Positions 1 through 17,304 of a stretch of 64,000 nt of DNA are shown one piece after another. The notes under the pieces were generated by a model, which worked only from the letters and a program-made list of their open reading frames with translations, searched no databases and was not told where the DNA came from. Numbering within the stretch: position 1 is the first letter of the stretch; each line of letters opens with the position of its first letter. A program made the position numbers and the translations under genes. The DNA comes from Phytophthora quininea (lineage: Eukaryota; Oomycota; Peronosporomycetes; Peronosporales; Peronosporaceae). The stretch lies in NCBI GenBank assembly GCA_011947345.1, contig JAAVTG010001008.1:1-64000 (forward strand), read 5' to 3'.

Positions 1-3
1 AGG

Positions 4-7
4 ACGT
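4..7. repeat. Target-site duplication, left copy
   Basis: ACGT lies immediately before the TG that opens the 5' LTR and recurs at 17305-17308. The match extends to ACGTT if the first T of the LTR is counted, so the duplication is 4 or 5 bases. Ty3/gypsy integrases usually give 4-6. Confidence 0.75.
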
Positions 8-1723
8 TGACACGATGTGAAAGTGGATTTTTCTATGTGGAGTATACTGAACGCAAGATACTGGACGCTGATTGGTGGATGAAAATTTCGAGTGGGAAAC
101 GACGCATGCGTACTGTGAGAGACGGTTTGAACACAGCTGCGCTGGATGCAGGTGTCCTACCAAGGAGGGACCTTAGGTACGAGAAGTGCGCGCAAGGATG
201 CAGAATTCCCTTGGACGCAGATGAGCACTCAGTCTCGGCCGACCCTCGTCCTGAAGGTGGGCTACCTCTTAAGGTGCAAATCTCCGTGCGGAATGTATCC
301 GCACGGGGACCCGCCCTTGCCTTGGTCGGTAACAAAGGCCCTGCAGCACCCGCAGCAGGCATCAAGCATGTCCCAGAATGTGTTCCCACCGAAGTTATCC
401 TGAACGCGGTCCAAGATATCCTGAACGCAGTCCGTGTGTTCTGAACGCAGACCATGATGTTCTGAACGCAGGCCATGACGTCCTGAACGCAGTCGAAGAT
501 CCTGAACGCAGATGAGTCCAAGTCGATATTCCTTGGACGCATCATGCCTCTATGGATTTCACTATACGGATGTATCGAATGTGCGTTCAAGGACTGGCAT
601 CCAAGATGGAAGTGCGTTCAAGATACCAAGTGCGTCCTGAACACAAGTGCGTCCTGGATGATGATCTGTTTTCGGTGCCGATGATTACGCCACAAGTTGA
701 ACTTGGGAAAGAATCCAGTAGAAGTGTCGAGTCGACAAGTCCTGCACATACTCAAGCCAAGATAAACGTAGAAGCCTGATTTGTACCCAGAGTCGCAAGA
801 GCACAGAGAGAAGAGAGAGAGAAAGAGTCTTAGATAAAACAAACAGAGAGTTCGATTTGCCAAGAAGCCCACAAGTGGTTTTGGAAGCGGTTTCCTGAGA
901 GCGCGTGCGTGCAAGGCGTGAAGGACAAGACGACCTGGGTGTCGCCGGGGCTCCCCATCCGTGTCAAGTCAAGTTGGGTAGGGGATCTTAAGGCGCGTGC
1001 GTCCAGGGTTCCCCCATTCCATTTCCCAGTTGGGCCGTCTGTCCGTGGCGACAACCCATTTCATATTCTCCCCACCTCCGGTGCGCGTTGGCAGTAAGCG
1101 TGCAGGAGTCCAAATCGGAACTGTAACTGCGTTCAAGAGCCCCGAGAAGTCCACGGTTGGTCAAGTTCTCCGGCTCAAGCGTCAAGGCCCCGTCTGGCCT
1201 AGTGTTTTTCCCTCGTTGAGGGTGGTGCGCGATCGTCCAGGAGTGTCCAAGGTGACCCGAGTGTCTTGGGTGCACATTCCTAATTGTACTCGGCTACAGA
1301 CCCCCGTCCAAGGGTCTCAAAGAATAAGCGACGGCTACATATTAGTGCGTTTAGCACATCGAATTCTCTGTATTGTTGGTTTTAAGTGGAGAAGTTCTCT
1401 CTACGCTCTACGCTCCACGCTCCCTCGTCTCTCACACCGCACGAGTGCGTTCAAGAGTCAAGTGCGTTCTACAAAGTGCGTCCAAGAACAAGCAAATCCC
1501 CAAACCTTGAGTCCCTGGTGGCAAATCCGGTCCGCCGAATCTAGCGATCGAGCCAACAGGGATTATCACAAGGTGCACGCCAAGTTCCTGAACGCAGATC
1601 AAGGTCTGCGTCCAAGATCTTTCCTGGAAGTTCTGTTTGCCAGATACACTTCCTAGGTACATTCACCCATCTACCGTGGTCACTATACACCCTGGGCGAA
1701 AAGTTTCATCGACCTTCGCCACA
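8..1723 (+). repeat. 5' LTR
   Basis: Long terminal repeat of about 1,716 bases starting TGACAC and ending CCACA. By eye it differs from the 3' copy at about 13 substitutions and three one-base indels. It holds roughly 16 exact copies of the dispersed TGRACGCA motif, including a phased cluster at 401-510, and a GA-rich tract around 780-835. Short open frames inside it are duplicated in the other LTR and do not resemble known proteins, so they are not annotated as genes. Confidence 0.93.
401..510 (+). repeat. Phased cluster of TGAACGCR motifs in the LTR
   Basis: Six copies of TGAACGC followed by A or G start at 401, 422, 442, 463, 483 and 503. Their spacing is 20-21 bases, about two helical turns. 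The spacer bases differ, so this is not a simple tandem repeat. An identical cluster lies in the 3' LTR at 15981-16090. Looser copies in the reverse orientation follow at 582 and 613. Confidence 0.85.
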
Positions 1724-1725
1724 GC

Positions 1726-1743
1726 TGGTGCGCGTGCCCGGAT
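1726..1743 (+). other. Primer-binding site
   Basis: TGGTGCGCGTGCCCGGAT begins two bases after the 5' LTR. Its complement reads like a tRNA 3' end: part of a T-loop, a five-base T-stem strand CCGGG, a seven-base acceptor strand CACGCGC, a discriminator A, and CCA. The tRNA species was not identified. Confidence 0.75.
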
Positions 1744-1827
1744 TTGGTTGCCTAGGATTTCACCAGCATTCAAGGTTTTGCGTTCTGAAGACTGCGTTTA
1801 AGAAAGCGTTTACTCCTGATTACAAGT

Positions 1828-2931
1828 ATGGTGGGAGGACGTGGAAGCGCGAAGAAGTCGGGTCGTGTGACGCTGGGCAAGAGGCCACGCGTCAGTCGCC
1901 GTGTGATGGGAATCCCTCCCGAGCAGCAGGAAGATCTGGATAAAGTGTTGAAAGATGCTCGGAAGCGGAAGTCCCAGAATGCAGCTGCGTCCAAGGACAC
2001 TCAGGTTGCTGAACTTGAAACCCACGACGCTGGCTCTAAGCCAGTTGAGGTGACAAGCGAAAGCAATCTGCGTCCAGAAGATGCAGACTGCGTTCAAGAT
2101 CAGCTGACTCTGAACGTGCGTTCAGAAGAAGCTCAGGCGTCACAGGAAGGCGCCGCTATGGTTGTGTCCCCGGAAGAGGTGGGAGTCTCTGAAGACTCAC
2201 TGCTACCGGGAGGCGATGGTGCGGTCTCTGAACGCACTCTCGCAGTTGTTGAGGAAGAGTCGAAGGCTGCAGTGCCGGATGTACCTGCGTCCAGCACTAG
2301 TAATGGCGTTGAAGACGTGTCGGAAGCTGCGGCGTGTTCGCAGGCTTTGGTGCCCATGACGCAGAGTGCCGATGGAGCTGCGGTTCCGCAAGGTGCACGT
2401 GCTGACAACCGCGTTCAAGGTCCTTCGCCCGAAGAAGTGCGTGCGAGAGCCTATGTGGCTGATGAAGTCCGTCGCTGGGAGAGGACCAACGCTAGGCCAG
2501 TTGTCCCGCCGAACTTGGTTTACCAGTGGCGCGCTGCGGTGCCTGATGCCACGGCTTACAAGCACTTGGCCGCAGATACTTGGACGTACATCAACATTGT
2601 GCTCCGCGCAGGAGGACAAGGTGCACTCTGGGTTGGCAATCTGCGTCCAGAACGCTGGGCGTTCAGCGCTGCTCGAGACTTGGACGGCGTCGACATCCCT
2701 GTTGACGGGTTCAACGCACGCGAATGCACGGCACTGGTACAGACGTTGCTGTTCGAGGCTGGGTTCAGGTTTGACAACCTGATCCCTGAATGGTATATGG
2801 CTCGTGCGTCCAGAGTCCCCTGGGACATTGTGCACGGCATAGCCAGAGACCTCCAGCGTACCCTGGCCGCAGAGTTAGTTGAGTGGAAGCAGTTGACCGC
2901 TGGAGTTGAGTGCCGAGAGGTCCACCCCTGA
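1828..2931 (+). CDS. Gag polyprotein, N-terminal segment
   Basis: A 367-codon frame opens about 100 bases after the primer-binding site. The first 60 residues are basic (residues 1-30 are rich in G, K and R). An acidic low-complexity stretch follows, then a more globular part (about 210-360) with several Trp and Arg residues. I do not recognise a named domain. It ends in a run of four C at 2926-2929 and runs into the next frame one base out, so a one-base contraction there would fuse it to the following segment. Codons carrying the TGCGTCCA/TGCGTTCA motif are read in all three phases here (LRP, CVQ, ASK). The assignment to gag rests on position and on continuity with the capsid and nucleocapsid frames downstream. 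Confidence 0.6.
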   Translation: MVGGRGSAKKSGRVTLGKRPRVSRRVMGIPPEQQEDLDKVLKDARKRKSQNAAASKDTQVAELETHDAGSKPVEVTSESNLRPEDADCVQDQLTLNVRSEEAQASQEGAAMVVSPEEVGVSEDSLLPGGDGAVSERTLAVVEEESKAAVPDVPASSTSNGVEDVSEAAACSQALVPMTQSADGAAVPQGARADNRVQGPSPEEVRARAYVADEVRRWERTNARPVVPPNLVYQWRAAVPDATAYKHLAADTWTYINIVLRAGGQGALWVGNLRPERWAFSAARDLDGVDIPVDGFNARECTALVQTLLFEAGFRFDNLIPEWYMARASRVPWDIVHGIARDLQRTLAAELVEWKQLTAGVECREVHP

Positions 2932-4530
2932 CTGCGTCTCAGGAGCAGACTGAGGCTGAACGCAGTGGGAATACTGAACGCAGTGGAGATGCTGAACGCA
3001 GTACGAATGCTGAACGCACCCCTCGATCGCAAACTGCTATCAGTGACCAAGACTGGAGTACGGACATGGAAGTCGATCAGGATGAGGTTGCGGCGTTTGG
3101 ATATGAGTTCGCGTGGAGGCTCTCCACGGCTGGCCTGTTAATGCCAGTCGAGCCCAGTGAGTCCTCGAGGGGCGAACCTGCGTCCAAGCGCCACCAACTC
3201 CGACCTCCGCGTCCAGCACCCACTCCGCCTCCGGCATCCACTCCGTCGCTGAGCTCGCTGCCGTCCCGGATGCCATCTGAGATGTCGTCGACTCTCGCGG
3301 TGGGTGTTGAACGTCTCGCCATTCAGGATGCCGGGCAAGTGCAGGATGCAGACGAACCAATGCTGCCAGCACCAGTACCGAGCTCGATCGGGCCGACTGG
3401 AACCACTGATGAGTCGTGGCCTTCAACGCAGACGTCGCACAACAGTTCGTCGTCATCCTCAATGCTGTCAGTGGGACATGGCGCTTCGGCGCACATGCCG
3501 TATGCAAGCCCTGTCGGGTATGTCTTCGCCGCTCGTCCGGGTGGTGAAAGTTTCGATGGTGCTCCATTCGGGACGATCACCCGCACTGTGTATCCTGCGC
3601 GAAGACAAGCTCAGACGGATGTGCACTCTGTGCAGACTGCGTCCAGGACGCATGTCCAGGACGCGGACGGAGACGCATTCAGCCCAAGCCCAGCGCTGGG
3701 TGGCGATGGTGATGCACACTCTGGAGTTGCCATGCCCTCGAGGGGCGAAGGTCATCTTGAACGCAGTACACCGATCGTTCACCCTGAACGCGGTCCGTCG
3801 CCAGCACACTCTCGGACGCAGTCCGTCTCCAGTGTCAACTGGATGCAGACGCAGAGCGAGGTTGTGCGGATGCGTCGAGAGGTCGAAGAGCAGCGTGCTG
3901 AAGACCAGCGTGTTCAGCATGCAATGCGACAAGAACTTCACAACTCACTCGCCGAGATGCGTGCGATGCAGGAATCCTTAATGCGTTCAGCGGCTGCCCG
4001 ACAGCGTCCGGAACGCACTCCGCCATCTTCGTCTCCCGCGCGGGATGTCCAGCACTCGAGAGAAGTCGCCATCCAGGAGGCAGTGCGCCAGGAACGTGAG
4101 CGCGTGGAAGCCTTGTACGCAGAACGCTGGAAGCAGCAGGCCGCGCAGGCAGATGCCGAACGCGAGCGCTTGATTGCAGAGACGAGTGCGGGCTTGAACG
4201 CACAAGTCGAGTCCCTGCAGCGCGCAGTGTCGAGTGTCCAGGAAGAACGGAGAAATGAGAGGCTGGCGGCCGAAGACCGACAACGTTTTCAAGCCAGTCA
4301 GTTGCGCGAGCTTCGCGCGACACTCACCCAAGTTCAAGGGTCACAACCGACTCCTCGTCCTCATCCAGCAACCACATACAAAGATGAAGGTAACTTTACC
4401 CCTCATTTTGCAACCGCTGGTCCGAGTAATGGAGCTTTTAGAACCCGAGGACGCGCGTCGGCGCAGGCCTCAACGCAGGTTGTCGCTGCGCAGGCCCCCG
4501 GCACCATAGCACTGCCAGAACCGAACCTGC
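2910..4530 (+). CDS. Gag polyprotein, Ser/Pro-rich and coiled-coil segment
   Basis: This continues the gag polyprotein. It starts with a six-residue repeat (variants of AERSGN) encoded by 18-base units that each carry TGAACGCA. A long Ser/Pro/Thr-rich linker follows, then a clear coiled coil rich in R, E, Q and A (about 3850-4330). The frame stays open to 4904, but after about 4530 its composition turns artificial (Arg/Pro only), and the natural sequence continues one frame back. The true coding path therefore shifts near 4430-4530. The N-terminal extension upstream of the capsid domain totals about 900 codons, which is long for a gypsy gag. Confidence 0.6.
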
Positions 4531-4546
4531 GTTCAAGCGTGAGCCC

Positions 4547-5278
4547 GTGGGCGACGCCGCGGAAGCCCCGAGGACTTCAACGAAGACGCCCGCCGCGCAG
4601 TCGACTCTCCCGCAGATCAAGACTGAGAAGTCAGCATCTAAGAAGTCTCGGAAGAAGACCAAGGCGAAGAAGACCAGGCGTGATCCCGACCCGTCGTCGT
4701 CCAACTCGGACTCTGACTCCAGTTCAAGTTCCAGAGACGACTACAGTGACGGCAGCTCTACGGACTCCGACAGTGATTCCAGCGGAAATGTGCGTTCAGG
4801 AACGGCCTCGTCAACCCCGAACGCAGATGGTTCGACGGTGTGGACTTACCGCCCGTACATTGTCTTCAACGCACTCCCGCAGTTCGACGACAGTGCGCGT
4901 TTAGAAGATCGCGTGGGCTGGTGGGAGCGCTTCAGGGACTTGTGCGCCCAAGGAGCTTGGACCGACGTAATGAAGGTCCGACAGCTCCGAGCACGTATGT
5001 CCGCCCCGTTGAGGAACTGGATCACCCAACTGCCCAAGCACGTGGGTTCAGACTGGAAGCGACTGTCCAAGAGGTTCAGGCGTCTATACTGCAGTCAAGA
5101 GAGCTCATACTACGAGAGGTACTTCACCATGAAGATGCGTTCAGGAGAAACAGCACGAGAATTCCTTTATCGTCTGAACGCAGTCGGCGTCAAGGCCCGG
5201 ATAAAGTTCAGGACAAAGCGTCCAAGCGCGAACGCCACATTCGCCGCTTCATCAAGAAGCTCAAGGATCGTGAGTTAA
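4547..5278 (+). CDS. Gag polyprotein, capsid (retrotransposon gag) domain
   Basis: A Lys-rich and Ser/Asp-rich linker leads into a typical retrotransposon gag domain at about 4840-5230. It shows an aromatic W-x3-F pattern (WWERF), helical segments with RLSKRFRRLYC, and the conserved YYERYFTMKMR / ETAREFLYRLN region. After about 5222 the natural sequence (RHIRRFIKKLKDRELKIAL) continues one frame back, within 4840-5667. This indicates another one-base contraction. The product assembles the virus-like particle in the family. Confidence is high for the domain and lower for exact joins. Confidence 0.8.
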   Translation: MGDAAEAPRTSTKTPAAQSTLPQIKTEKSASKKSRKKTKAKKTRRDPDPSSSNSDSDSSSSSRDDYSDGSSTDSDSDSSGNVRSGTASSTPNADGSTVWTYRPYIVFNALPQFDDSARLEDRVGWWERFRDLCAQGAWTDVMKVRQLRARMSAPLRNWITQLPKHVGSDWKRLSKRFRRLYCSQESSYYERYFTMKMRSGETAREFLYRLNAVGVKARIKFRTKRPSANATFAASSRSSRIVS

Positions 5279-5576
5279 AGATCGCGTTGCAAGGGAACAA
5301 GTTTAAGAGCATCGATGATCTGGAGCAAGCAATCCGGCGTCATGAAGAAGTATGGCGTGAAGATGGTTCTGACGCTTCGACTATGCCCCGGACGCGAGAC
5401 GCCCGTGCCGATAACATCCCTCGGGACCGATTCAAGTCTGGACGCAGGGTGCGTATATCGCGCACAACGCAGACCAAGATCAAGGATCAGAGGAAGAAAG
5501 GCATGTACGTTTTCACGAGTCTGACGACGACGCAAGCTACGCAGACGACGAAGAGTAGTTCCCTTCGACGCATGTC

Positions 5577-6077
5577 ATGGTGGCCCGCCGCCCCGACAGC
5601 CGTGAAGGCCGCAAGCCTGAGGTGCGTCCAAGGGGCGATGTGCGTTCAAGAACCCAGGAGTCCCTGAACGCAGACATCACTCAGCAGATTTACCGTGTGC
5701 TGGAGAATGTCGGCTGGAGTCCTCAACAGTCTCAAGGCAACATGCGTTCAGGACCTACCTCGCCCAAGACGCAGAATCCTCAACGCAGCGAACTCTGTGA
5801 AAGATGTGGAAGCTGGTCGCATTCGACTGAGAATTGCTGGAAAGACTTAGTGTGCGAACGTTGTGGAGAACGCGGGCATCCAACTCGCAAGTGCTGGAGG
5901 AAGAAGTGCGTCCTGTGTGAGAAGTACCATCGTGAAGGCCAGTGTGAAGCCGCTCAGGCATTTCAAGAAGTGAAGAAGCTTGCCAGCCAAGGTGCACTCA
6001 AAGACCTGCCGGATCATGTCAGAACGCAGTTTCTTGACGAGGTCATGGCCGATCCTGGGGAATCGCAGTTAAACTAA
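5577..6077 (+). CDS. Gag polyprotein, nucleocapsid with three zinc knuckles
   Basis: Two CX2CX4HX4C knuckles (CERCGSWSHSTENC, CERCGERGHPTRKC) and a third variant CX2CX3HX4C (CVLCEKYHREGQC) lie at about 5800-5945. They identify the RNA-binding nucleocapsid part of gag. In the same frame upstream, an acidic stretch from about 5440 ends in an in-frame TAG at 5556-5558, and open sequence resumes directly after it. The gag frame closes with TAA at 6075-6077. The protease frame begins in another phase about 50 bases later. Confidence 0.85.
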   Translation: MVARRPDSREGRKPEVRPRGDVRSRTQESLNADITQQIYRVLENVGWSPQQSQGNMRSGPTSPKTQNPQRSELCERCGSWSHSTENCWKDLVCERCGERGHPTRKCWRKKCVLCEKYHREGQCEAAQAFQEVKKLASQGALKDLPDHVRTQFLDEVMADPGESQLN

Positions 6078-6129
6078 CACGCCCGCTGGACGGGGTCCAG
6101 AACGCGTCGGGCGCGCGAAACCCCAAGGA

Positions 6130-7779
6130 TTGTGTGGCTTAGTGTATGTAGGCCCAGAGCTGAGAAGGAAACGAAACCAAGATAACCAACAATGCATGGC
6201 AATACATGAAGATCCGACATCCGACCAAAACCGACCGACTCTTGAACGCAGTAATGCGCCTCTAGATCTTGAACGCACTTGTGTGCGTTCAGACCTTGAG
6301 TGCAATAATATGCGTCCAGAAGACCAAGACTACGGGGAACAAGTGGAGTTCCAGTTGGGACCCGGCGAGAGATTCGGTTGGTGGAAGGATCACGAAGTAC
6401 CGGACAAGCATGAGGTTGCCATGGTGCATGGCGCGATCAACAATTATCGCACCCAAGTTCTTCTGGACTCGGGGGCGTCCGTGAGCATTGTGAGCTTTGA
6501 CTTTGCGCGTAAGTTAGGACTCAAGCTCAGGACGCAGAAGTTGATGAAAGTGTCAGGGTTGGGTGGAGTGCCCACCTACATCTCAGCTCACACTCAAGTG
6601 AAGATTACGCTTGGGTGGAGAGTGGTCTACATCATGACGATTTTGGTTGCGAACATTGGCGAAGGAGTGGACGTGCTACTTGGAATGAACTTCATGTTCG
6701 CCGCAGGAGTGCGGTTGTGCGTTCGAGGAGGACTGGTGCAGCTTCCTGACGAGGAGACTGTTCTGATCTACGGCGGGCCTTCCAGACGCAGAGGTCTTGA
6801 CCTCGCGGTCAGACCTACAGAATATCTGTATCTGCGTCCAGGAGACTTTGCCATCGTGAAGGTTCGTTATGGACAGTCTAATCCCCAACGCGAACTGGTT
6901 TGGGCTGGACGCGGAGACCGATGGGTGACCAAGATCATCTACGGTGCACGGTCGTGGCCAGTAGCTGTCAAGGTGGTGAATGTCTCGAACCGGATGGTAT
7001 CGATCGACCCCGGGGTGTCTGTGGCTAGGATTGTTGAGTATGGCCGCTACCCCACCGGACGGTTTGTGCGTCCAGGGACCCCACGCTATCTGGAGTGGCA
7101 ACACCTCATCTACGAGCACACGGTGTCCCGAGAAGCAAGGCTGCGTGCAGAACGACTGGAGCGACTCGCGGAAGAAGCTGAACCACCATGCGTTCCGCGT
7201 CCAGAGTACCCGTGGCCGACTAAGATACTGCCAAGACCTGCTGAATGCACGGCTGAAGTACGGATCGCCAAGCTACAGAACGCTTTGGGAGGAAGCTCGT
7301 CCTCTGTGCGGACAACCCCTGGACGCAGACCTCGAATGGTGGATGCCTCAACGCAGACGGACCCGACTGATCTGGGTGAGCAATCCCCAGACACAGGGAA
7401 TATGATGCGTTCAGGGATCGCCGGGCCGCAAAGATTTGTGGAGGTGTGTTCAGAAGATGATGACGACAGTGATGGTCTGAGTGTGGACAGGTCCAATCTG
7501 GACTTGGACGACTTCCCAATGCAGAACGCAGTTGGAACCCCAGTCGCGAAATTGGAGCGTGAGTATGCTCGAGTAATGAGGGTGACTGCTGAAGAGTTGG
7601 ACCTGGAGCCGGGAGTGTATCTCCGCGAAGGCAGTGAGCGTATGGCACAATTGCGTGATGAGCTCACGATGCTCCCAGAGTTGGCAGATCTCACTCCCGC
7701 ATGCGATATTCAGAAAGCAGATGTGGGCGTCCAAGGCGTGACCACCCCGAGATGGAAGAACAGTTGCGATGCGTTCTAG
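6130..7779 (+). CDS. Pol: aspartic protease segment
   Basis: A 549-codon frame contains a retropepsin-like aspartic protease. The catalytic motif LLDSGASVSIVS lies at about 6460-6500, followed by a glycine-rich flap-like region and GVDVLLGMNFM, which matches the ILG motif that closes the family fold. The C-terminal 200 residues form a linker rich in acidic residues. The frame ends at 7779, but RT coding continues from one frame back after a run of four C at 7746-7749. A base lost in that run would fuse protease and RT, which is the usual gypsy arrangement. A programmed -1 shift is an alternative, but the same pattern recurs in host genes. Confidence 0.85.
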   Translation: MCGLVYVGPELRRKRNQDNQQCMAIHEDPTSDQNRPTLERSNAPLDLERTCVRSDLECNNMRPEDQDYGEQVEFQLGPGERFGWWKDHEVPDKHEVAMVHGAINNYRTQVLLDSGASVSIVSFDFARKLGLKLRTQKLMKVSGLGGVPTYISAHTQVKITLGWRVVYIMTILVANIGEGVDVLLGMNFMFAAGVRLCVRGGLVQLPDEETVLIYGGPSRRRGLDLAVRPTEYLYLRPGDFAIVKVRYGQSNPQRELVWAGRGDRWVTKIIYGARSWPVAVKVVNVSNRMVSIDPGVSVARIVEYGRYPTGRFVRPGTPRYLEWQHLIYEHTVSREARLRAERLERLAEEAEPPCVPRPEYPWPTKILPRPAECTAEVRIAKLQNALGGSSSSVRTTPGRRPRMVDASTQTDPTDLGEQSPDTGNMMRSGIAGPQRFVEVCSEDDDDSDGLSVDRSNLDLDDFPMQNAVGTPVAKLEREYARVMRVTAEELDLEPGVYLREGSERMAQLRDELTMLPELADLTPACDIQKADVGVQGVTTPRWKNSCDAF

Positions 7780-8765
7780 AACGACATCGCTCCATCTTTC
7801 TCGGAGATGCCAACGCAGCCCCAGCACCTGCACGCGGGGTGGTCTGCGACCTGGATGTCGGAGACGCTAGGCCAGTGGCTCAACGCGCCCGACAGGTTGC
7901 ACCACACCTGCTGCTGAAAGTTTATGAGCTGTTGAAGAAGCTGTTGGAGACAGGTCTCATTGAGTTCTCCGAATCGCCTTGGGCTTCACCCATCGTGATC
8001 GTCCTGAAGAAGAACGGCATCGACATCCGCATGTGTATCGACTACCGCGTTGTGAACAGTTTCATTAAGCTGTCAAACTACCCTCTACCCTTGATCGACG
8101 ATCTACTGATTGGGTTTGAGGCAGCGATGTGGTTTATGTCACTCGATATGGCGAGCGGTTTCTGGGCGATTCTGATGACTGAACGCGCAAAGCTGATTTC
8201 AGCATTTATTTGTCCCTTCGGCCACTTCCAGTGGATCCGATTGCCTTTTGGACTTAAGAACGCACCTCTGATCTACCAACAAGTGATCAACAATTGTTTG
8301 TGGGGATTTGTGCGTCTGCCACCGGAGGAAGAAGCTAAAGTTGACCCGGAAGTTCTGGAATTCTTGAAGTTGGACGCACCAAGTCCTGAACGCACCTCGT
8401 GCGAACAAGAGGTTCCGGCCTTGACTGATCAGATGACAGTGTTCCAGCGGAACATACCCGCACCCAAGCAAATGGGCCCAGTTCTTGGACGCAGTTCGTA
8501 CATCGATGATATTGCCCACGGGGCAGAATCTTGGACGCAGCTGTGCGAAGATCTGAATGCACTATTGTTCCGATTGCGGTACTGGAGGATTTCGGTGAGT
8601 TTACCCAAGAGTGAGTTCGGCAAATTGTCGATACCGTATCTGTCACATGAGGTCAGTGCTGAGGGCATCCGAGCCACACCCAAGATTGTGAAGGGCGTTC
8701 AAGAACTTCCGTTCCCGTCGACACTCAAAGGAGTTCAATCATTCATGGGGAGTCTGAATTACTAG
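7701..8765 (+). CDS. Pol: reverse transcriptase segment, ends at in-frame TAG
   Basis: Typical Ty3/gypsy RT landmarks are in order: SPWASPIVIVLKK, MCIDYRVVNS, YPLPLIDDLL, LDMASGFWAI, RLPFGLKNAP, and the catalytic YIDD at about 8500. Coding from about 7750 to 8762 is uninterrupted. A TAG at 8763-8765 falls in the connection region after SLNY, where the family normally has another aromatic or Arg residue, and the same frame continues afterwards (NKFIEDLPVIAAVLYEL). The stop is not a homopolymer artefact. It could be a point mutation or, less likely, a readthrough codon. Confidence 0.9.
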   Translation: MRYSESRCGRPRRDHPEMEEQLRCVLERHRSIFLGDANAAPAPARGVVCDLDVGDARPVAQRARQVAPHLLLKVYELLKKLLETGLIEFSESPWASPIVIVLKKNGIDIRMCIDYRVVNSFIKLSNYPLPLIDDLLIGFEAAMWFMSLDMASGFWAILMTERAKLISAFICPFGHFQWIRLPFGLKNAPLIYQQVINNCLWGFVRLPPEEEAKVDPEVLEFLKLDAPSPERTSCEQEVPALTDQMTVFQRNIPAPKQMGPVLGRSSYIDDIAHGAESWTQLCEDLNALLFRLRYWRISVSLPKSEFGKLSIPYLSHEVSAEGIRATPKIVKGVQELPFPSTLKGVQSFMGSLNY

Positions 8766-8789
8766 AACAAGTTTATCGAGGACTTACCT

Positions 8790-9542
8790 GTGATTGCAGC
8801 TGTCTTGTACGAGTTGAATGACGACCAAGTGCGTTCAGGAAGAGACTTATCCCGAGCGAAAACTGCGTTCGAGATCTTGAAGCGGAAGATCGTATCAACT
8901 CCGTTGTTACGACATCCTGAACGCACTCGGCAGTTCATAATCATTCCGCATGCAAACCCTTGGGCGGCTAGTGCTGTTCTTGGTCAAGAGCACGATGGTG
9001 TTATTCAGCCGGTGCGCTTCACGGGGCTCGTTCTGAACGAGTTTGAAATCCGGTACCACATCGCAGAAAAGGAAGTCATAGCGATCCTGCGCGTCCTGGA
9101 ATTGTTCAGACCTCTGATTTTCGGGAATCCCTTTCCAGTTGTGGTGTACACTCGGTACTCGGTACTGAAGTGGCTTCTCGAATCAAGCTCTGCCGACGGA
9201 CGTTGTCTTCGATGGGGTCTGGAGTTGTCGAAATGGTCTCTGGAGATTCGCCGCGTTCAGCATGATGAGGATGGGCTCGCCGCGATCTTGGGCGCAGTTA
9301 TCACACCGCGTGAGCACTTGGACGCAGTTTCCGAGGAACTGATCCCAGCCAAGGGGCGCGTCAAGCCTCCGCCTCCGATTAGCATCGAAATGCTGGAGGC
9401 AGACTTCGAAGGGATTGTTCTGAGTTTCGACGGCGCAGCCAAGACCTCGACGCGACAAGGGAGTTGCGGATGCATCCTGTGGCAGTTGCCTGGATGCATG
9501 TCTTGGATGCACGAGGATTCATCTTGGAAGATGTCACTGTGA
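8790..9542 (+). CDS. Pol: RT connection and RNase H start
   Basis: Same frame as the RT upstream of the TAG. It covers the RT/RNase H tether domain (LRHPERTRQFIIIPHANP, then AEKEVIAILRVLELFRPLIF) and the beginning of the RNase H fold with the first catalytic Asp (LSFDGAAKTST, about 9430). The frame then drifts into a stop at 9542. The rest of RNase H is found one frame back, which is consistent with a lost G in the GG near 9498. Confidence 0.85.
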   Translation: MIAAVLYELNDDQVRSGRDLSRAKTAFEILKRKIVSTPLLRHPERTRQFIIIPHANPWAASAVLGQEHDGVIQPVRFTGLVLNEFEIRYHIAEKEVIAILRVLELFRPLIFGNPFPVVVYTRYSVLKWLLESSSADGRCLRWGLELSKWSLEIRRVQHDEDGLAAILGAVITPREHLDAVSEELIPAKGRVKPPPPISIEMLEADFEGIVLSFDGAAKTSTRQGSCGCILWQLPGCMSWMHEDSSWKMSL

Positions 9543-11719
9543 ACGATGCAGAGTATCACGGACTGTTGAAAGGTTTGGCTATGGCAGCTGAACGCAGACT
9601 GCACGACTTGGTAGTCGTTGGGGATTCACGAATTGTCATCCAACAAGTCCAAGGTCTAATCAATTGCCTGCAGCCGAACCTCCAACGGCGTTTAGCAGAA
9701 GTCGAGGCGCTGAAGGTTAAGTTCAAGGACCTGCGTTTGGTACACGTAAAACGTGAGTTCAACCAGGCCGCTGACTATCTGACCTCCAAGACTTTGGCCC
9801 TTGGTGCGTCCTGGACGGCCGAAGACCCCGATGAGCTCGGGCACCTGAAGGCAGTGTCTCGAATCGCCGAACAGCTTGTAAAGCCTTTCGAGGAAGCTGA
9901 AAGTGCGTCCAGGGATGAGTCCCTAAACGCAGATGCAACCCCCGAGGCAGAACTGCGTTCAGAGTCTGCCCCGCTGACTCCTGCAGCCAGAGTCCTGGCC
10001 GCCGTAACACGAAGTCGAGCGCGCGAGGAGCCCGCTTCACCCAAGCCGATGGGGCCGCTAGAGTATCAGGCGGAGAGATGGCGTCGGATCCGAGCGCATC
10101 AGGCCGGCGACAATTTTTTGCTGGGGATCAAGAAATTCCTGAAGGGGGACGTGGCGGAGTTCAGCCGCGCTCAAAATAGGAAGATCGCCAAGGTTGCCGA
10201 CCTGTATGTGTTGGATTCCAGAGATGTGCTATATCGCCTGAGTGCACCGACCGGAAGTCGACCGCGCGACATGCATTCAGAGTTGAGACTCGTTGTACCC
10301 GAAGGGCTGCGTCCAGACATTCTTCACTACGCACACGAAGATTTCCAAGGAGGCCACCAAGGCATAACTCGAACGTACGAGAACCTGCGTTCAGAGTTTT
10401 ACTGGCCCAGGATGTATGCGGACGTGGAAGTGTTCGTGAAGGAGTGCCTTGACTGCGCATCAGCCAAGGGGCGACCACCAAACCCTGGACCATCACCTGG
10501 AAACATCGAGCCGACTCGTCCGTTTGAAGTGGTTTCAATGGACTTCGTGACGCACATGCCCGAATCTGAACGCGGCAACACATTTCTGCTGCTGTTTCAG
10601 GACGCATTTTCTGGTTTTGTCATGTGCAAACCTATGCGTTCAACAACCGCCCAGGATGTCGCTGAAGCCTATGAGGAGTGCGTCTTCAGGAGGTTTGGTG
10701 CGAGCTCGATGATTCGGCATGATCAAGATCCGAGGTTCATGAGCGAAGTATTCACACGTTTCAGGGAGCTCCTTGGGAGCAAGCAGCGGGCAACACTTGC
10801 CTACCGCCCCCAAGCCAATGGTCAGCAGGAGCGTTCAGTGCAAACTGTGATGCGAAGCGTCCGAGCCTATGTCGCGGAAGCGGATCAGAGTGACTGGGAC
10901 GACCATGCTGAACGCCTCATGTTTGCGTTGAACACGTCTTTCGATGCCACTCGCTTAGATGCTCCGTTTTATTTGGTGCATGGCTGGGATGCACAAGGCA
11001 CTTTGTCTGCCATGTTAGGCCCGAAGCCGACCGGCGTTGCTGAACGCAGTGCATACGAGTGGAGGCGGAAACTGCGTCGAGACTACAGTTATGCCCTAGC
11101 CTGCGCAGAAGACTTGCAGAAGACCGCCAAGCGAGAGCGTTCAGCAATCCAAACCCAGAAGTGGCGAGGATTGTCTGAACGCATCAAGTCTGGTTTCAAG
11201 GAAGGTGACGCTGTATGGTTATACATCCCCAAGGTGCAACCAGGGCTGAGTCGCAAGCTGGCACACCTTTGGCACGGTCCGTTTAGGATTGATGAGATCC
11301 ACGACGACTTCAGAGTCAAGTTGAAAGTGCAGGATACTGGCTACCGTGTGAATCCTTGGGTGCACATCAGTCGCCTGAAGCCTTGCGCACTATTTCCGAA
11401 GCGGCCGACTGCTACCATCGACGTGGCGGAAGATGACGACTTCGACGCAGCCCTGCTTCCCGAAGATAGTTGGGAGCCTGATGCGTCCAACAACGAGTAC
11501 GAAGTTGAGAAGATCTTGGACGCACGATGGGCCAAACGTACCCGAACGTCCAAACGCATTCGCGAGTACCAGATCAAGTGGAAAGGATACGACCAAACTG
11601 ACTGGTTACCGGCTTCACAACTGAGTTGCGGTGCTCTCCTGTATGAATTCAACCAAGGAGCCCGAGCACGCGCTCGGTTCCAAGCCATGCAGGCGGGCGA
11701 TGATCATCCAAGGATGTAG
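9464..11719 (+). CDS. Pol: RNase H end, integrase and chromodomain
   Basis: The first 120 codons complete RNase H (NDAEYHGLLKGL with the catalytic Glu, VVVGDSRIVIQQ with Asp). A linker follows, then the integrase HHCC zinc domain (HYAHEDFQGGHQ ... CLDC, about 10320-10460) and the DDE core (SMDFVTHMP; RHDQDPRFMSEVF; YRPQANGQQERS with the catalytic Glu). The C-terminal part has the GPF-type motif (HLWHGPFRIDEI) and ends in a chromodomain (EYEVEKILDARW ... YQIKWKGYDQTDWLPASQL, about 11495-11640). Chromodomains in this lineage bind modified histone tails and steer integration. Stop at 11717-11719. Confidence 0.93.
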   Translation: MRMHPVAVAWMHVLDARGFILEDVTVNDAEYHGLLKGLAMAAERRLHDLVVVGDSRIVIQQVQGLINCLQPNLQRRLAEVEALKVKFKDLRLVHVKREFNQAADYLTSKTLALGASWTAEDPDELGHLKAVSRIAEQLVKPFEEAESASRDESLNADATPEAELRSESAPLTPAARVLAAVTRSRAREEPASPKPMGPLEYQAERWRRIRAHQAGDNFLLGIKKFLKGDVAEFSRAQNRKIAKVADLYVLDSRDVLYRLSAPTGSRPRDMHSELRLVVPEGLRPDILHYAHEDFQGGHQGITRTYENLRSEFYWPRMYADVEVFVKECLDCASAKGRPPNPGPSPGNIEPTRPFEVVSMDFVTHMPESERGNTFLLLFQDAFSGFVMCKPMRSTTAQDVAEAYEECVFRRFGASSMIRHDQDPRFMSEVFTRFRELLGSKQRATLAYRPQANGQQERSVQTVMRSVRAYVAEADQSDWDDHAERLMFALNTSFDATRLDAPFYLVHGWDAQGTLSAMLGPKPTGVAERSAYEWRRKLRRDYSYALACAEDLQKTAKRERSAIQTQKWRGLSERIKSGFKEGDAVWLYIPKVQPGLSRKLAHLWHGPFRIDEIHDDFRVKLKVQDTGYRVNPWVHISRLKPCALFPKRPTATIDVAEDDDFDAALLPEDSWEPDASNNEYEVEKILDARWAKRTRTSKRIREYQIKWKGYDQTDWLPASQLSCGALLYEFNQGARARARFQAMQAGDDHPRM

Positions 11720-12186
11720 CGTCTTGGACGCATTATCCTGGATGCAGACCGTTGTATATGTGAAACCGATTGGCTATGTTTTGAAATATCTGGAAATTGT
11801 ATACCGGAGTACACGACCCTGAATGCGGATGCGCTACGCGGTGGGTGTACCGGATGGGACCAAGTCTAAATGGTAGCGTTGCGCAAGATTGGCATTGTGC
11901 TGGAAGGTGATTATGCGTCCAAGGATTGGTGGAAATGCTGGATGCGTTGGTAGCGTTCTAGTAAATGAATGCGACGTTGGTGGAGAAGTTGAGTGTGCGG
12001 CCAGCCTACTGCGTGCTAGTGTGGCTGTGGTCGGTAACAGAGAAAAGGTTGGAACTTGCAGTCAACTCTGGACGCAGAAGTCAGACGTGAATGACATGTA
12101 TTCCCAGAAGTTGGAAGAGGACCTACCGCGTGCGTCCAAGAAGACAGCTGCGTTCAGGGTTTACGGAGGACGACAATGACAGTTGG
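11720..12186 (+). other. Non-coding spacer between pol and the antisense gene
   Basis: About 470 bases separate the end of pol from the end of the antisense block, so the two coding units converge here. Five copies of the TGRACGCA motif (or its reverse) fall inside, near 11725, 11914, 12071, 12132 and 12152. No convincing coding sequence is present. A poly(A) or terminator element for either strand would be expected, but none could be pinpointed. Confidence 0.5.
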
Positions 12187-12762
12187 TCACTGCATCGTGT
12201 GGCCCGGGATCAGGTTCCGCGCTCGAATCTCGTTGGGCTTGACCTTTCTGCGCAGCTTCTTAGGGACTCCCGCGATGCGTTGACGTTCGTCGTCGCAATT
12301 AGTCCATTGAACGCGCGCCGGCTCGCGCTCATCCAAGGCCTGTAGCTGCTCCTTCAAGGTAATGGCGTGGCCGCTGGTGCATTTAGTACTGGGTGCCATC
12401 CAGACCCAGGGGCACGTCTTCGCCGGGAGCGTCCACAAGCTGGGCTCGTACAGCAGTGCGGCCCTGAACGCAGGGATCTCGGACAAGTTGGCGATTAGAG
12501 TCTTGTGCCCGCGACGAAGTGCGTCGTAACGCTTTCTGCGTTCAGCATACAGCCTGCGAGACTGGCTCAGGTCCTGCGCCGCCAAGATGCGTTCAGCCTC
12601 CCGATCGGTGTCGGATGCGCTGCTGCCGGATCTGTCTTGCTCCTCGTCGCTTGAATCTGCATCCTGGGGGTCGTGATCTTCTGAGCCAGAGCTGCTGCCT
12701 TCGTCCGTGTCGATGTTCACCCAATGTGTGATCTCCCACCAGGCTTGCATGTGCTCCTTCAT
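12187..12762 (-). CDS. Antisense gene of the retroelement, C-terminal segment
   Basis: The 191-codon end of the antisense block. It starts with a Trp-rich helix (MQAWWEITHWV), then an Asp/Glu/Ser tract, then a basic helical region (ERRKRYDALRRGHKTLIANL) and a Lys/Arg-rich C-terminus. The stop is at 12187, about 470 bases from the end of pol. The alternating acidic and basic low-complexity composition and the absence of catalytic motifs suggest a nucleic-acid or chromatin-associated protein, but that is speculation. Confidence 0.5.
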   Translation of the reverse strand: MKEHMQAWWEITHWVNIDTDEGSSSGSEDHDPQDADSSDEEQDRSGSSASDTDREAERILAAQDLSQSRRLYAERRKRYDALRRGHKTLIANLSEIPAFRAALLYEPSLWTLPAKTCPWVWMAPSTKCTSGHAITLKEQLQALDEREPARVQWTNCDDERQRIAGVPKKLRRKVKPNEIRARNLIPGHTMQ

Positions 12763-13055
12763 GAAGTTGACGTATCTGCGGAGCCCTCATGCGAGCTCAT
12801 TCTTCCGGTCGAATACGGCGCCTCATGGAAATAGAAGTTCTTGGCGCGGTCAGTGAACATCTGCGTCCAAGGCTCTGTCCTCAAGATGGCCTTGTAAGAC
12901 TTGATGTCCCAACGCGACTTCCACAACGCAATCTCAGCGCGTTGGGGAAAGTAGCGTGGAAATCCACGAGTCTGGGGAGATCTCGAGCCGTAGAAGGCCA
13001 TCAACGCGCCGTAGATCCTGAACGAAGTGGTAGACTTGTAGTCGGGAGCCTCCAC
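12759..13055 (-). CDS. Antisense gene of the retroelement, basic segment
   Basis: In this frame the sequence upstream of the first Met is also natural coding (KARLRRGKSPLAKIPFEKL, from about 13285 down), so the start shown is not a real initiator. It leads into an aromatic-rich block (SFRIYGALMAFYG, FPRYFPQRAEIALWKSRWD). A run of three G near 12790 marks the shift into the final segment, which again fits one lost base. Function unknown. Confidence 0.45.
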   Translation of the reverse strand: MEAPDYKSTTSFRIYGALMAFYGSRSPQTRGFPRYFPQRAEIALWKSRWDIKSYKAILRTEPWTQMFTDRAKNFYFHEAPYSTGRMSSHEGSADTSTS

Positions 13056-13075
13056 GACGCCGAGCTGTTCTTCTG

Positions 13076-14107
13076 TCAGCTTCTCGAAGGGGATCTTCGC
13101 GAGAGGTGACTTGCCACGACGGAGTCTGGCTTTCGGGTTCTTGGATGCAGCATCAGCCTTGGACGCAGAAGAGCCCTTGGACGTAGAATGAGCACTGGAG
13201 GCCTCGTGACGTTTTCGCTGTGGAGTCGAGGGAGCTTTACCACTGCGGCCGTGCTTCTTGGAGGTACGCCCAGATGCGGGGGACTGCGTTCAGCAGCAGA
13301 ACTCTCGGGTTCGCTTTCTGCGCCCGAGGGCGAATCTTCCCCAGCGTGTCCAGCAATGGTCCCCAAGATTTCCACTTCCGATCCGTCTCCATCTTCGTCG
13401 TTCTCATGGTCGTCTGCGTCCTGAGCCGTGGAATAACTCGGGTCCTGCTCCTCGTTGTCAGACTCGCCAGACACTGGAGCGTCTGCCGCCACCACGTGGA
13501 GGTGGTTGTCTGCTGCGGGCCACCCTTCGGGTCGCTCACCGCGGTCAGCCATTCTTTCCAAGGCGTTGCCAGCGTCGATGAAGTAGCCCTCAGGCACGAA
13601 GCGCGTCCAAGGTGTCTTGTCCAGCTTGGCCCAGTACATCATGCGTGCAAGCATGTCCACGAGAGGCGTCCAGTAAAAGTGCTGGTGAAGAGGTTCGTCG
13701 TCTTTCAACTTGAGCAGGGCGTCGTCAAGCGAAAAGCCAGCCATCATCAGACACTGAACGTCCCGACGCAGATGTCTCCACTCGTACGGTCCTGGCACCT
13801 GAGCGCAAGCGACTGCTCTTGGAACCACCGGTGCCATGTGAACGTCCCGGGTGGTCTGGGGCGCAGCCTCGTGGTCCAGCGGCCGAGCTCGGATCGCGCG
13901 GTCAAACCGGCCTTCGTGCCGAGGTGTCGCCGGACTAGCAAGTCCCGCGGTCGCCTTCGATGTCCCCCGAGCCTGGAGTACCATCTGATGCTGAACGCAG
14001 GTTATCCTTGGATGCAGAGCCAGAAGTGCTAGATGCAGAAGCGTGTCCCGAATCGGAGGAATCTCGTGGCGGCGTGGAAGGCGCGTCGTGGTGACCTGGC
14101 GATCCAC
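13076..14107 (-). CDS. Antisense gene of the retroelement, acidic segment
   Basis: The credible part runs from about 13984 (an internal Met) to about 13285. It starts with a basic region and then a conserved-looking helical block (VPGPYEWRHLRRDVQCLMMA, FYWTPLVDMLARMMYWAKLD). A strongly acidic Asp/Glu/Ser tract follows. Beyond a run of five C at about 13275-13280 the natural sequence (basic, Lys/Ser-rich, KKHGRSGKAPSTPQRKRH) continues in the next frame. No named domain was recognised. Upstream of 13984 the frame overlaps the previous segment and is probably not used. Confidence 0.45.
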   Translation of the reverse strand: MDRQVTTTRLPRRHEIPPIRDTLLHLALLALHPRITCVQHQMVLQARGTSKATAGLASPATPRHEGRFDRAIRARPLDHEAAPQTTRDVHMAPVVPRAVACAQVPGPYEWRHLRRDVQCLMMAGFSLDDALLKLKDDEPLHQHFYWTPLVDMLARMMYWAKLDKTPWTRFVPEGYFIDAGNALERMADRGERPEGWPAADNHLHVVAADAPVSGESDNEEQDPSYSTAQDADDHENDEDGDGSEVEILGTIAGHAGEDSPSGAESEPESSAAERSPPHLGVPPRSTAAVVKLPRLHSENVTRPPVLILRPRALLRPRLMLHPRTRKPDSVVASHLSRRSPSRS

Positions 14108-15194
14108 GTTGACCCTTGGGCGGGTACGGCCCTGGAACGGAGTTCGGGTCGTCCGCGTTCAAGATGTGGAGTGTCGTCTTCCACGCAGCTGGTGGGTCGG
14201 TCTTGGATGCAAAATGCTGCACAAGACCGAAGAGCCGCTTCCAGTCCCCATGAACAGTGCCGTGCGCTTTCAAGAAGTCGATGAAGTCGAACGCATCCAA
14301 TTTCTGGACGCAGACCTGCTTCTCCAGTTCCCGGACGCGTGTCTGAGCTGCGTCCAGTGCGTCTTGAGCATCGCCGAGCTGAACACGCAGCGCGTCGAAC
14401 TCATCACGATGCTGCTCCGAGATGACCTTGAACTGGGAACGCAGCCCGCCAGCGACGCCTTCACTTTCCGCACGCGCTTCGGCTACCGCACCGGCCCAAT
14501 AACTGCACATCGCCGACCATTCACGACGGATGCCCTGGTTTTCAGCGCGCAGATCGATGATATCCTGGAGAGAGTCGCTGTTGGCCTGATCCTCGACGGT
14601 GGTACGCATGATCCGGTAGTGTGTGAGGAGGCGGCGGATGACAGTCATGGTGTTGAACGTGCGTTCAGCAAGACGCTCCGCGTCGAACTTGACCACCAAC
14701 GACGCCACTTCACGACGCAGTGCAGGTGCGTTCAGAAGTCCCTGGAGGTCGTCGTATGAGGGACACAGGTCGTCACGCAGCGTGAGGATTTCTGAACGCA
14801 CGTCAGGGCCGAAGAGATTCTCCAAGTCCAGTATATCCTCGGAGGAGAGCAGTTCCAGGGACAGCATGGCCTGTAGGCCGCCGTAGCCGTCCGTGAGGTA
14901 AGCTCCACGCTGCACAGCATTGAGAGTCGCCGGAACACCGACGAGCTTGGTGTCCGCCGCACAGCCCTGCGCGGGAGGCAGTGTCCAGGAGGTTGGCACT
15001 ATGGGGCCAGCCATCGGCTCCACGAATGAGAGGGCGACCATTTGCGACAGCGAGCGCTCGGCGAACTGGTCGTACGTTGCCCAACGAGAAACGCCACGAG
15101 GCGGAGGCGGTATGGAGCTAGTGTCGCCATCGTCGCTGCCGGCGGGCGCTGCGAGCTTGGTCTCGTCGGGAGAGGGCTCGCCGTCGCTCTCCAT
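13935..15194 (-). CDS. Antisense gene of the retroelement, coiled-coil segment
   Basis: A 419-codon frame with balanced composition. It has an acidic N-terminus, a helical middle (for example YDQFAERSLSQMVALSFVEP and ILDLENLFGPDVRSEI), a long coiled coil at about residues 190-300 (HRDEFDALRVQLGDAQDALD), then a Gly/Ser/Pro-rich tail. No enzymatic motif is visible and I do not recognise the family. It may be the centre of a single antisense protein of about 1,100 residues, or one of two proteins, since the join to the next segment near 13950-13990 is the only one not explained by a single lost base. A structural or gag-like role is possible but is inference. Confidence 0.55.
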   Translation of the reverse strand: MESDGEPSPDETKLAAPAGSDDGDTSSIPPPPRGVSRWATYDQFAERSLSQMVALSFVEPMAGPIVPTSWTLPPAQGCAADTKLVGVPATLNAVQRGAYLTDGYGGLQAMLSLELLSSEDILDLENLFGPDVRSEILTLRDDLCPSYDDLQGLLNAPALRREVASLVVKFDAERLAERTFNTMTVIRRLLTHYRIMRTTVEDQANSDSLQDIIDLRAENQGIRREWSAMCSYWAGAVAEARAESEGVAGGLRSQFKVISEQHRDEFDALRVQLGDAQDALDAAQTRVRELEKQVCVQKLDAFDFIDFLKAHGTVHGDWKRLFGLVQHFASKTDPPAAWKTTLHILNADDPNSVPGPYPPKGQRGSPGHHDAPSTPPRDSSDSGHASASSTSGSASKDNLRSASDGTPGSGDIEGDRGTC

Positions 15195-15571
15195 GCGCAG
15201 TCCTTGGGCCCTTGTGGGAGCACCGGCTTGAGCGGTGGTCCGCGACGAGCTTCAAGCGGAGGAGGAACGTTGGCGACAACGCTGGTACCCATGGGCGCCT
15301 TGGAGGTGTCCGCGGCGCTGGTTGGTGTCTGGTCGACTGGTGGCGGCGAAGATGCTGGTTCCTCGGCGGGCATGGTCGTCAGCGGAGGATTTGAGAAGTG
15401 ATGTTGGGTGCGTGATGTCGTCGGACTGCGCGATCCGACAGTTGGAGTGCGCGTTTGCGAGAAAGGGCGCAGAAAGAAGCGGAGACCCGGCAGTTGAGGG
15501 CCGGGTGCGTTTAGCTTGGTTCCCGACATGGCGTGTTCGCTTGAACGCAGATTCTGCTCTGAAGCAACCAT
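14999..15571 (-). CDS. Antisense gene of the retroelement, N-terminal segment
   Basis: On the opposite strand to gag-pol, a frame opens just inside the 3' LTR boundary and reads a Pro/Ser/Thr-rich N-terminus. The likely initiators are at 15571 or the second Met (MSGTKLNAP). Natural composition stops near 15230, where the next segment continues in another frame. Restoring one G in the GG there would join them. I recognise no domain. Its position between pol and the 3' LTR, on the minus strand, resembles the antisense additional ORFs described in some plant Ty3/gypsy elements. Transcription would have to start in or near the 3' LTR. Confidence 0.5.
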   Translation of the reverse strand: MVASEQNLRSSEHAMSGTKLNAPGPQLPGLRFFLRPFSQTRTPTVGSRSPTTSRTQHHFSNPPLTTMPAEEPASSPPPVDQTPTSAADTSKAPMGTSVVANVPPPLEARRGPPLKPVLPQGPKDCAWRATASPLPTRPSSQRPPAATMATLAPYRLRLVAFLVGQRTTSSPSARCRKWSPSHSWSRWLAP

Positions 15572-15574
15572 AAC

Positions 15575-15586
15575 GGGAAGGGGCGG
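15575..15586 (+). other. Polypurine tract
   Basis: GGGAAGGGGCGG is almost all purine (one C) and ends directly before the TTGACA that opens the 3' LTR. This is the expected position and composition for the plus-strand primer of an LTR element. Confidence 0.75.
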
Positions 15587-15587
15587 T

Positions 15588-17304
15588 TGACACGATGTGA
15601 AAGTGGATTTTTCTATGTGGAGTATACTGAACGCAAGATACTGGACGCTGATTGGTGGATGAAAATTTCGAGTGGGAAACGACGCATGCGTACTGTGAGA
15701 GACGGTTTGAACACAGCTGCGCTGGATGCAGGTGTCCTACCAAGGAGGGACCTTAGGTACGAGAAGTGCGCGCAAGGATGCAGAATTCCCTTGGACGCAG
15801 ATGAGCACTCAGTCTCGGCCGACCCTCGTCCTGAAGGTGGGTTACCTCTTAAGGTGCAAATCTCCGTGCGGAATGTATCTGCACGGGGACCCGCCCTTGC
15901 CTTGGTCGGTAACAAAGGCCCTGCAGCACCCGCAGCAGGCATCAAGCATGTCCCAGAATGTGTTCCCACCGAAGTTATCCTGAACGCGGTCCAAGATATC
16001 CTGAACGCAGTCCGTGTGTTCTGAACGCAGACCATGATGTTCTGAACGCAGGCCATGACGTCCTGAACGCAGTCGAAGATCCTGAACGCAGATGAGTCCA
16101 AGTCGATATTCCTTGGACGCATCATGCCTCTATGGATTTCACTATACGGATGTATCGAATGTGCGTTCAAGGACTGGCATCCAAGATGGAAGTGCGTTCA
16201 AGATACCAAGTGCGTCCTGAACACAAGTGCGTCCTGGATGATGATCTGTTTTCGGTGCCGATGATTACGCCACAAGTTGAACTTGGGAAAGAATCCAGTA
16301 GAAGTGTCGAGTCGACAAGTCCTGCACATACTCAAGCCAAGATAAACGTAGAAGCCTGATTTGTACCCAGAGTCGCAAGAGCACAGAGAGAAGAGAGAGA
16401 GAAAGAGTCTTAGATAAAACAAACAGAGAGTTCGATTTGCCAAGAAGCCCACAAGTGGTTTTGGAAGCGGTTTCCTGAGAGCGCGTGCGTGCAAGGCGTG
16501 AAGGACAAGACGACCTGGGTGTCGCCGGGGCTCCCCATCCGTGTCAAGTCAAGTTGGGTAGGGGATCTTAAGGCGCGTGCGTCCAGGGTTCCCCCATTCC
16601 ATTTCCCAGTTGGGCCGTCTGTCCGTGGCAACAACCCATTTCATATTCTCCCCACCTCCGGTGCGCGTTGGCAGTAAGCGTGCAGGAGTCTAAATCGGAA
16701 CTGTAACTGCGTTCAAGAGCCCCCGAGAAGTCCACGGTTGGTCAAGTTCTCCGGCTCAAGCGTCAAGGCCCCGTCTGGCCTAGTGTTTTTCCCTCGTTGA
16801 GGGTGGTGCGCGATCGTCCAGGAGTGTCCAAGGTGACCCGAGTGTCTTGGGTGCACATTCCTGATTGTACTCGGCTACAGACCCCCGTCCAAGGGTCTCA
16901 AAGAATAAGCGACGGCTACATATTAGTGCGTTTAGCACATCGGATTCTCTGTATTGTTGGTTTTAAGTGGAGAAGTTCTCTCTACGCTCTACGCTCCACG
17001 CTCCCTCGTCTCTCCACACCGCACGAGTGCGTTCAAGAGTCAAGTGCGTTCTACAAAGTGCGTCCAAGAGCAAGCACATCCCCAAACCTTGAGTGCCTGG
17101 TGGCAAATCCGGTCCGCCGAATCTAGCGATCGAGCCGACAGGGATTATCACAAGGTGCACGCCAAGTTCCTGAACGCAGATCAGGGTCTGCGTCCAAGAT
17201 CTTTCCTGGAAGTTCTGTTTGCCAGATACACTTCCTAGGTACATTCCCCATCTACCGTGGTCATTATACACCCTGGGCGAAAAGTTTCATCGACATTCGC
17301 CACA
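15588..17304 (+). repeat. 3' LTR
   Basis: Second copy of the terminal repeat, about 1,717 bases, collinear with the 5' copy at an offset of 15580-15581. The three one-base indels relative to the 5' LTR lie in runs near 1140, 1434 and 1663 of the 5' copy. It ends CACA and is followed by ACGT, which matches the bases just before the 5' LTR. Confidence 0.93.

Follow-up and report, generated by a model that had tools for sequence, protein, structure and literature searches.

A Chronos-type element and the word that fills it

The window, a 64,000-nucleotide stretch of Phytophthora quininea DNA from an 87-Mb eukaryotic genome assembly, opens with a complete Ty3/Gypsy long terminal repeat (LTR) retrotransposon of about 17 kb (positions 8–17304), which is assigned to the Chronos type from its domain layout and in which a short word, TGRACGCA, recurs at high density on both strands (Table 1). 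Both RT_RNaseH and RVT_3 score above the Pfam cut-off, giving pol a dual RNase H, and Integrase_H2C2, rve and Chromo all fall within 9464–11719, so that the chromodomain follows the integrase and closes pol on its 3' side. This arrangement is shared with the Chronos elements of oomycetes, for which a layout of protease, reverse transcriptase, dual RNase H, integrase and chromodomain has been described; the accessible part of that report says nothing of a saturating word or of an antisense gene (PMC5348765). The LTRs start with TG and finish with CA, and the insertion is young, as the LTR pair differs by 13 substitutions over 1715 aligned bases. The 28.6-kb contig C7 carries a further copy, which differs from the window element by 0.6% over 8.7 kb and represents either an alternative haplotype or a second insertion.

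Table 1. Features of the retrotransposon and its flanks (ORF, open reading frame; positions in the window)
Feature	Position	Strand	Remark
Target-site duplication ACGT, left copy	4–7		identical four bases follow the 3' LTR
5' LTR, TG...CA ends	8–1723	+	16 word copies
Tandem array in 5' LTR, ~21-bp units	392–511	+	most units with word; recurs in 3' LTR at 15972–16091
ORF1	1828–2931	+	8 word copies; no match in Pfam search
ORF2 (gag region)	2910–4904	+	11 word copies; no match in Pfam search
Tandem array within coding sequence, 18-bp units	2955–3018	+	units with word
Gag zinc-knuckle region	5577–6077	+	Pfam matches below curated cut-off
Aspartic protease ORF	6130–7779	+	Pfam; 8 word copies
Reverse transcriptase ORF	7701–8765	+	Pfam
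RNase H of reverse transcriptase	8790–9542	+	Pfam
Second RNase H (RVT_3), integrase, chromodomain	9464–11719	+	Pfam
Spacer, pol to antisense gene	11720–12186		5 word copies in 467 bp (10.7/kb)
Antisense gene, four overlapping frames (13938–15251, 13079–14158, 12762–13289, 12190–12786)	12190–15251	-	homologous protein in families A–D
Third word-bearing tandem array, within antisense gene	13140–13193	+
Probable polypurine tract	15575–15586	+	purine-rich stretch ahead of 3' LTR, from sequence
3' LTR	15588–17304	+	16 word copies
Target-site duplication ACGT, right copy	17305–17308

The preliminary description of this DNA, made by eye, had put the word at about 100 copies, with about 16 in each LTR, about 69 in the interior and about six elsewhere, and exact counting of TGRACGCA/TGCGTYCA bears this out: 101 copies lie in 1–17304 (62 of TGAACGCA and 39 of TGGACGCA, both strands pooled), of which each LTR has 16 and the interior 69, whereas the remaining 46.7 kb (17305–64000) has 6. 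With the second LTR excluded, 85 copies are left, whereas 200 simulated order-2 Markov sequences average 2.5 and never exceed 7; forms of the word with a single mismatch are enriched as well (6.2 vs 1.8 per kb). The presence of the word on both strands, in all three phases and in coding and spacer sequence had likewise been described; the strands are split 49 plus to 52 minus, all three reading phases are used, and one spacer is enriched. Calculated with the LTR ends set slightly short, the density is 9.6/kb in the LTRs, about twice that of the genes (3.8–7.3/kb), and it reaches its value for the pol–antisense spacer in Table 1 and zero in a short stretch just past the 5' LTR. A check against codon-preserving shuffles had also been proposed, and in interior open frames 270 codons or more in length, each given 300 synonymous shuffles, the excess survives: eight of ten frames exceed all of their shuffles (for example, 10 sites vs a mean of 0.80, and 11 vs 0.76), the other two giving 4 vs a maximum of 5 and 2 vs a maximum of 2. 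The tested frames partly overlap, and some only shadow a gene that the other strand encodes.

Genome-wide, the extended form YYTGRACGCAG occurs 1012 times vs 471 for its reversed control. Among the first 100 matches listed in contig order, 13 lie on C3 (1.78 Mb), 44 on C7 and 43 on C8, and every one of the 43 is within the window element. Helical phasing of the sites at 10.0 bp is weak in this family (27 of 2000 jitters); it is lost when the tandem arrays are removed (278 of 2000) and is absent in the sister family B described below.

Because of the strand balance, the use of all phases, the enrichment in LTRs and spacer and the outcome of the codon shuffles, selection appears to act on DNA and not on protein, and the word is very probably a DNA-level selected site; a distribution dense in LTRs and spacer and sparser in genes is in keeping with a site that works as double-stranded DNA and is tolerated within genes. 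Selection or amplification on DNA or RNA, and not on protein, had been suggested before, and of this suggestion the DNA part holds, whereas the RNA part sits poorly with the equality of the strands. Retroelements do package RNA, and small RNAs directed against Phytophthora transposons have reportedly been found, both of which would speak for a packaging signal, an RNA–protein site or a small-RNA target. However, the near-equal strand split, repeated for the words of the related families B (31 and 40) and C (7 and 10), makes a function at the RNA level highly improbable.

Related families and the turnover of their words

Searches of the same genome with the integrase and antisense proteins matched loci that merge into 32 stretches besides the window element, among which families A to D were defined by integrase identity plus word; further single, more distant stretches remain. 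The integrase-region DNA of family A (C8, C7, C166 and C576:291k) is 75–76% identical to that of family B (C573, C655, C845, C847 and the decayed C760) and mostly 73–74% identical to that of family C (C209, C378, C525, C526, C552, C664, C712, C60 and C693) or family D (C419, C576:319k, C129, C56 and C639). The dispersed words differ by family, being TGRACGCA in A, TTGGRCGC in B and TTGGGCGK/TTGAGCGT in C. TGRACGCA reaches 4.9–5.3 per kb in A and 3.7–3.9 in four copies of B (1.9 in C760), and falls to 0–0.24 in C and 0.2–0.9 in D. CTGAACGC is found at 3.1–3.4 per kb in A, 0.5–0.9 in B and 0 in C, while TTGGACGC is found at 1.4–1.6 in A, 2.7–3.2 in B (1.8 in C760), 0.2–0.4 in C and 0 in D; TTGGGCGK is present at 1.0–2.3 per kb in C and at 0.1–0.25 in A and B. 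Copies inside one family are near identical and do not count as independent cases.

An unbiased scan, in which all 8-mers were scored with occurrences at least 40 bp apart, gave best scores of 81 for A, 75 for B, 26 for a more distant family E and 19–23 for C copies of at least 7.5 kb (7.8–17.9 in shorter C stretches), compared with 7.4–12.3 in ten 8-kb chunks of the window, 6.7–13.3 in fifteen 4.5-kb chunks and at most 12.5 in Markov sequences. The same scan of C339, C3:692k, C266, C183, C950, C638, C508, C578 and the D stretches gave 6.5–14.4, within or barely above the controls. The codon-shuffle excess is present also in frames of B and C. An expectation-maximisation motif model gave a clear result for A and B; its runs on C, D and two control stretches were dropped, as they drifted to base-composition patterns, and an apparent loss of the C word in C664 was dropped because it arose from unalignable sequence at the LTR end.

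Family E was recognised on C552, where its element (L070, G000:C552:77301-86935) adjoins a downstream family C element and each keeps its own word. Its integrase is 45% identical to that of the window element, and its word, GAAACCTCGSTGG, is unrelated to those of A–C: there are 18 merged sites in the 9.3 kb of the E stretch, while the window element has none and the remainder of the window 10. The integrase frame, with 6 sites vs a shuffled mean of 0.47 and a maximum of 3, is the sole E frame above all 500 codon shuffles; four other frames hold 2 sites each (means 0.15–0.27, maxima 2–3). Genome-wide, GAAACCTCGSTG occurs 102 times vs 27 for its control, and among the first 100 matches listed, 7, 7 and 8 fall in three 13-kb stretches of C552, C640 and C830 that coincide with E-type integrases; over 5.7 kb, the copies on C640 and C552 share 98.7% identity. 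On another contig (G000:C185:198321-226730), 19 same-strand places of TCTTGGGCGG at steps of ~1.48 kb form a long tandem array.

In family D and the other sampled relatives, no convincing word was found. CCCGACGC recurs in several D copies, but those copies are related. ATCCTGGA, which scored 20 in a 3-kb LTR-side stretch of D, was rejected since that stretch contains the LTR plus an inverted copy of the LTR; after removal of duplicates, 15 distinct TCCTGGA sites are left in ~11 kb. At the locus L072 (G000:C419:1257301-1260300), a stretch resembling a D LTR is followed by part of the same sequence in inverted orientation.

Site turnover was followed along the aligned integrase stretch, as the preliminary description had proposed that family members be aligned to see whether sites are conserved or gained. 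There, 10 of 12 A sites align to B without gaps, any difference at these sites being substitutions; five are kept exact in B, one in D and none in C. At one position the C element has its own word where A and B have theirs, and at another B has its own. Because most sites align gap-free to relatives, they change mostly through point substitution in place. Within families, site conservation was compared among copies that are too similar or one-sidedly decayed. These alignments bear on the possibility that slippage, template switching or conversion spreads the word without selection for binding: three short tandem arrays in the window element do carry the word, and a copying process explains these arrays only, since the sites in the integrase stretch differ by substitution if at all and no direct repeat of at least 100 nt other than the LTRs was found in 1–18000. 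Spread of this kind, without selection for binding, is very unlikely.

The phenomenon is thus real and strongly non-random, and it is more general than the preliminary description had seen. Among the explanations offered there, a binding protein encoded by the element is the best fit, given that words differ between related families, and packaging or small-RNA roles fit poorly. The word could instead be a site for a host transcription, insulator or chromatin protein recruited by the element, as Drosophila gypsy recruits the host protein Su(Hw) through its sites, and DNA-level sites on both strands, with their highest density in the LTRs and at the expected place of a promoter, agree with such a role. 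However, close families in one genome have different words, that of E being unrelated, so that several host factors would be needed, and the sites are spread through all genes of the element; host recruitment is accordingly a less probable explanation, although one of some weight.

The antisense gene as a candidate binding protein

The cognate protein of the word is probably encoded by the element itself, and the leading candidate, which we hold to be nearly as likely right as wrong, is the product of the antisense gene, which lies between pol and the 3' LTR. Its protein is homologous among A, B, C and D, being a single open frame in C378 (826 codons) and C56 (1117 codons), and it is the most divergent shared protein that can be compared across these families: by segment, the proteins of B–D are 25–50% identical to that of A, as opposed to 61–90% for the RNase H–integrase–chromodomain frame. 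The B and C proteins are 28–50% identical to that of A, and the words of A, B and C are likewise related; E combines an unrelated word with antisense ORFs that lie at the equivalent place in the element and show no detectable similarity to the A–D antisense profile.

In the antisense protein a coiled coil is predicted, and basic patches resembling nuclear signals are present, but no fold was recognised. A profile search of solved structures returned mostly coiled-coil matches (best expectation value 0.018), the predicted fold of the whole protein has a predicted local distance difference test (pLDDT) score of 45.5, and a 121-residue domain predicted at pLDDT 74 has no match in the PDB. No protein-database match at an expectation value of 1e-3 or below was obtained among ~8000 candidates sharing most sequence words with it. 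This blank says little because close relatives appear to be missing from the database, in which the host dynein found no match above 69% identity among the 120 best listed. That dynein heavy chain extends over three ORFs of the window (42022–44691, 46617–52022 and 51965–55546, plus strand), its matches including the stramenopiles Ochromonas and Phaeothamnion, in agreement with an oomycete host, and a kinesin motor fragment lies at 34115–35449 on the minus strand.

An element protein could also bind the word for another purpose, such as steering or avoiding integration, pairing copies or organising the DNA copy, and not to resist silencing. Such binding would share all of the evidence except the role, and the integrase bears a chromodomain; however, the integrases of A and B are 90% identical over most of their length, yet the preferred words differ. 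A purpose of this kind is unlikely, though not negligibly so.

A proposed self-marking of transposon DNA

The closest known counterpart is the VANC/VANDAL system of Arabidopsis, for which the accessible parts of two reports describe that VANC21 binds YAGTATTAY, a motif enriched in the cognate VANDAL family and infrequent in the others, that VANC6 has different words, and that VANC proteins remove silent marks (PMC5735166, PMC10398659). In those parts, as here, a short family-specific word differs between related families, a trait that A, B, C and E display and D does not; the VANC word turns over fast with its own protein. In contrast, VANDALs are Mutator-like DNA transposons, whereas the present element has LTRs, reverse transcriptase and integrase, and VANDAL words are described mainly from non-coding tandem repeats, often in one orientation, whereas the words here are dispersed over coding and non-coding sequence on both strands and turn over mostly by substitution. 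The VANC domains DUF1985 and DUF287 were absent among the Pfam matches of the element ORFs and antisense proteins. Because of the wrong transposon class and the absence of a VANC domain from these matches, the window element is best regarded as resembling VANC/VANDAL in sequence pattern and not as a member. The earlier statement that no equivalent had been described was therefore not quite right, since VANC/VANDAL as reported (PMC5735166) is a functional analogue, but one that differs in transposon class, protein and motif placement.

Other parallels are partial. The aORF-3R genes of Grande, RIRE2 and Retand are antisense additional ORFs of stated unknown function, which share with the present gene a conserved opposite-strand position between pol and the 3' LTR; a saturating word is not mentioned in the accessible part of that report (PMC7264820). 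A literature search of limited reach, with subscription literature mostly outside it, recognised no published LTR or Chronos element that is saturated with a motif. In Neisseria and Haemophilus, DNA uptake sequences are short words at high density, on both strands and in genes too, kept through a protein that recognises self DNA; there, whole bacterial genomes and natural transformation are concerned, not a transposon.

Based on these comparisons, a possible mechanism can be proposed. Each word may be the site at which a DNA-binding protein particular to the family, most likely element-encoded and possibly the antisense gene product, attaches to double-stranded DNA. Numerous dispersed sites could allow this protein to coat and recognise the DNA of its own family, new insertions included, and the bound protein may prevent silencing of that DNA or otherwise control its chromatin. 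As the specificity of the protein drifts, point mutations that restore a match could be selected in LTRs, in spacers and wherever coding sequence tolerates them, through which sister families would acquire different words; the pattern suggests a binding site that changes together with a family-specific protein. An anti-silencing role is a tentative proposal, somewhat short of probable. In the accessible part of one report on two Phytophthora species, 5-methylcytosine was not detected and N6-methyladenine was enriched in transposable elements (PMC6211444), so an anti-silencing function would have to target a mark other than that of the plant case.

Several observations weigh against this mechanism. 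Binding of the word by a protein is inferred from sequence, and Pfam, profile and fold searches with the antisense protein revealed no DNA-binding domain. The main difficulty is family D, which has the antisense gene, with its long open frame in C56, without a convincing word, and A, B and C are related to one another and provide few independent cases. ORF1 and gag also diverge (29–79% by segment between A and B, the families covered), so that the antisense gene is not singled out. Furthermore, an amino-acid cost at motif sites is not significant in A and C and is marginal in B (2/9 vs 15/506, P 0.03), and where A retains a conserved residue, motif codons unique to A number 0/15 vs 111/483 (P 0.03); one A site encodes arginine where B, C and D have serine. 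With these points considered, the reading in which each word, as double-stranded DNA, is bound by a protein that is particular to its family, is probably encoded by the element and marks its own DNA against silencing is plausible, with the balance slightly against it.

A more specific proposal, held with less confidence, is that this is a self-recognition system independent of VANC, in which the antisense protein of Chronos elements binds sites point-mutated into the whole element and families split when a joint change alters both protein and word. The antisense genes found in other LTR retrotransposons may act likewise. If this is true, motif-based self-marking of transposons would extend beyond Arabidopsis, having arisen again in another transposon class and probably with another protein, the antisense genes of LTR retrotransposons would gain a testable role, and the families of this Phytophthora would preserve, inside a single genome, the natural history of a protein and the site it binds as both changed in step.

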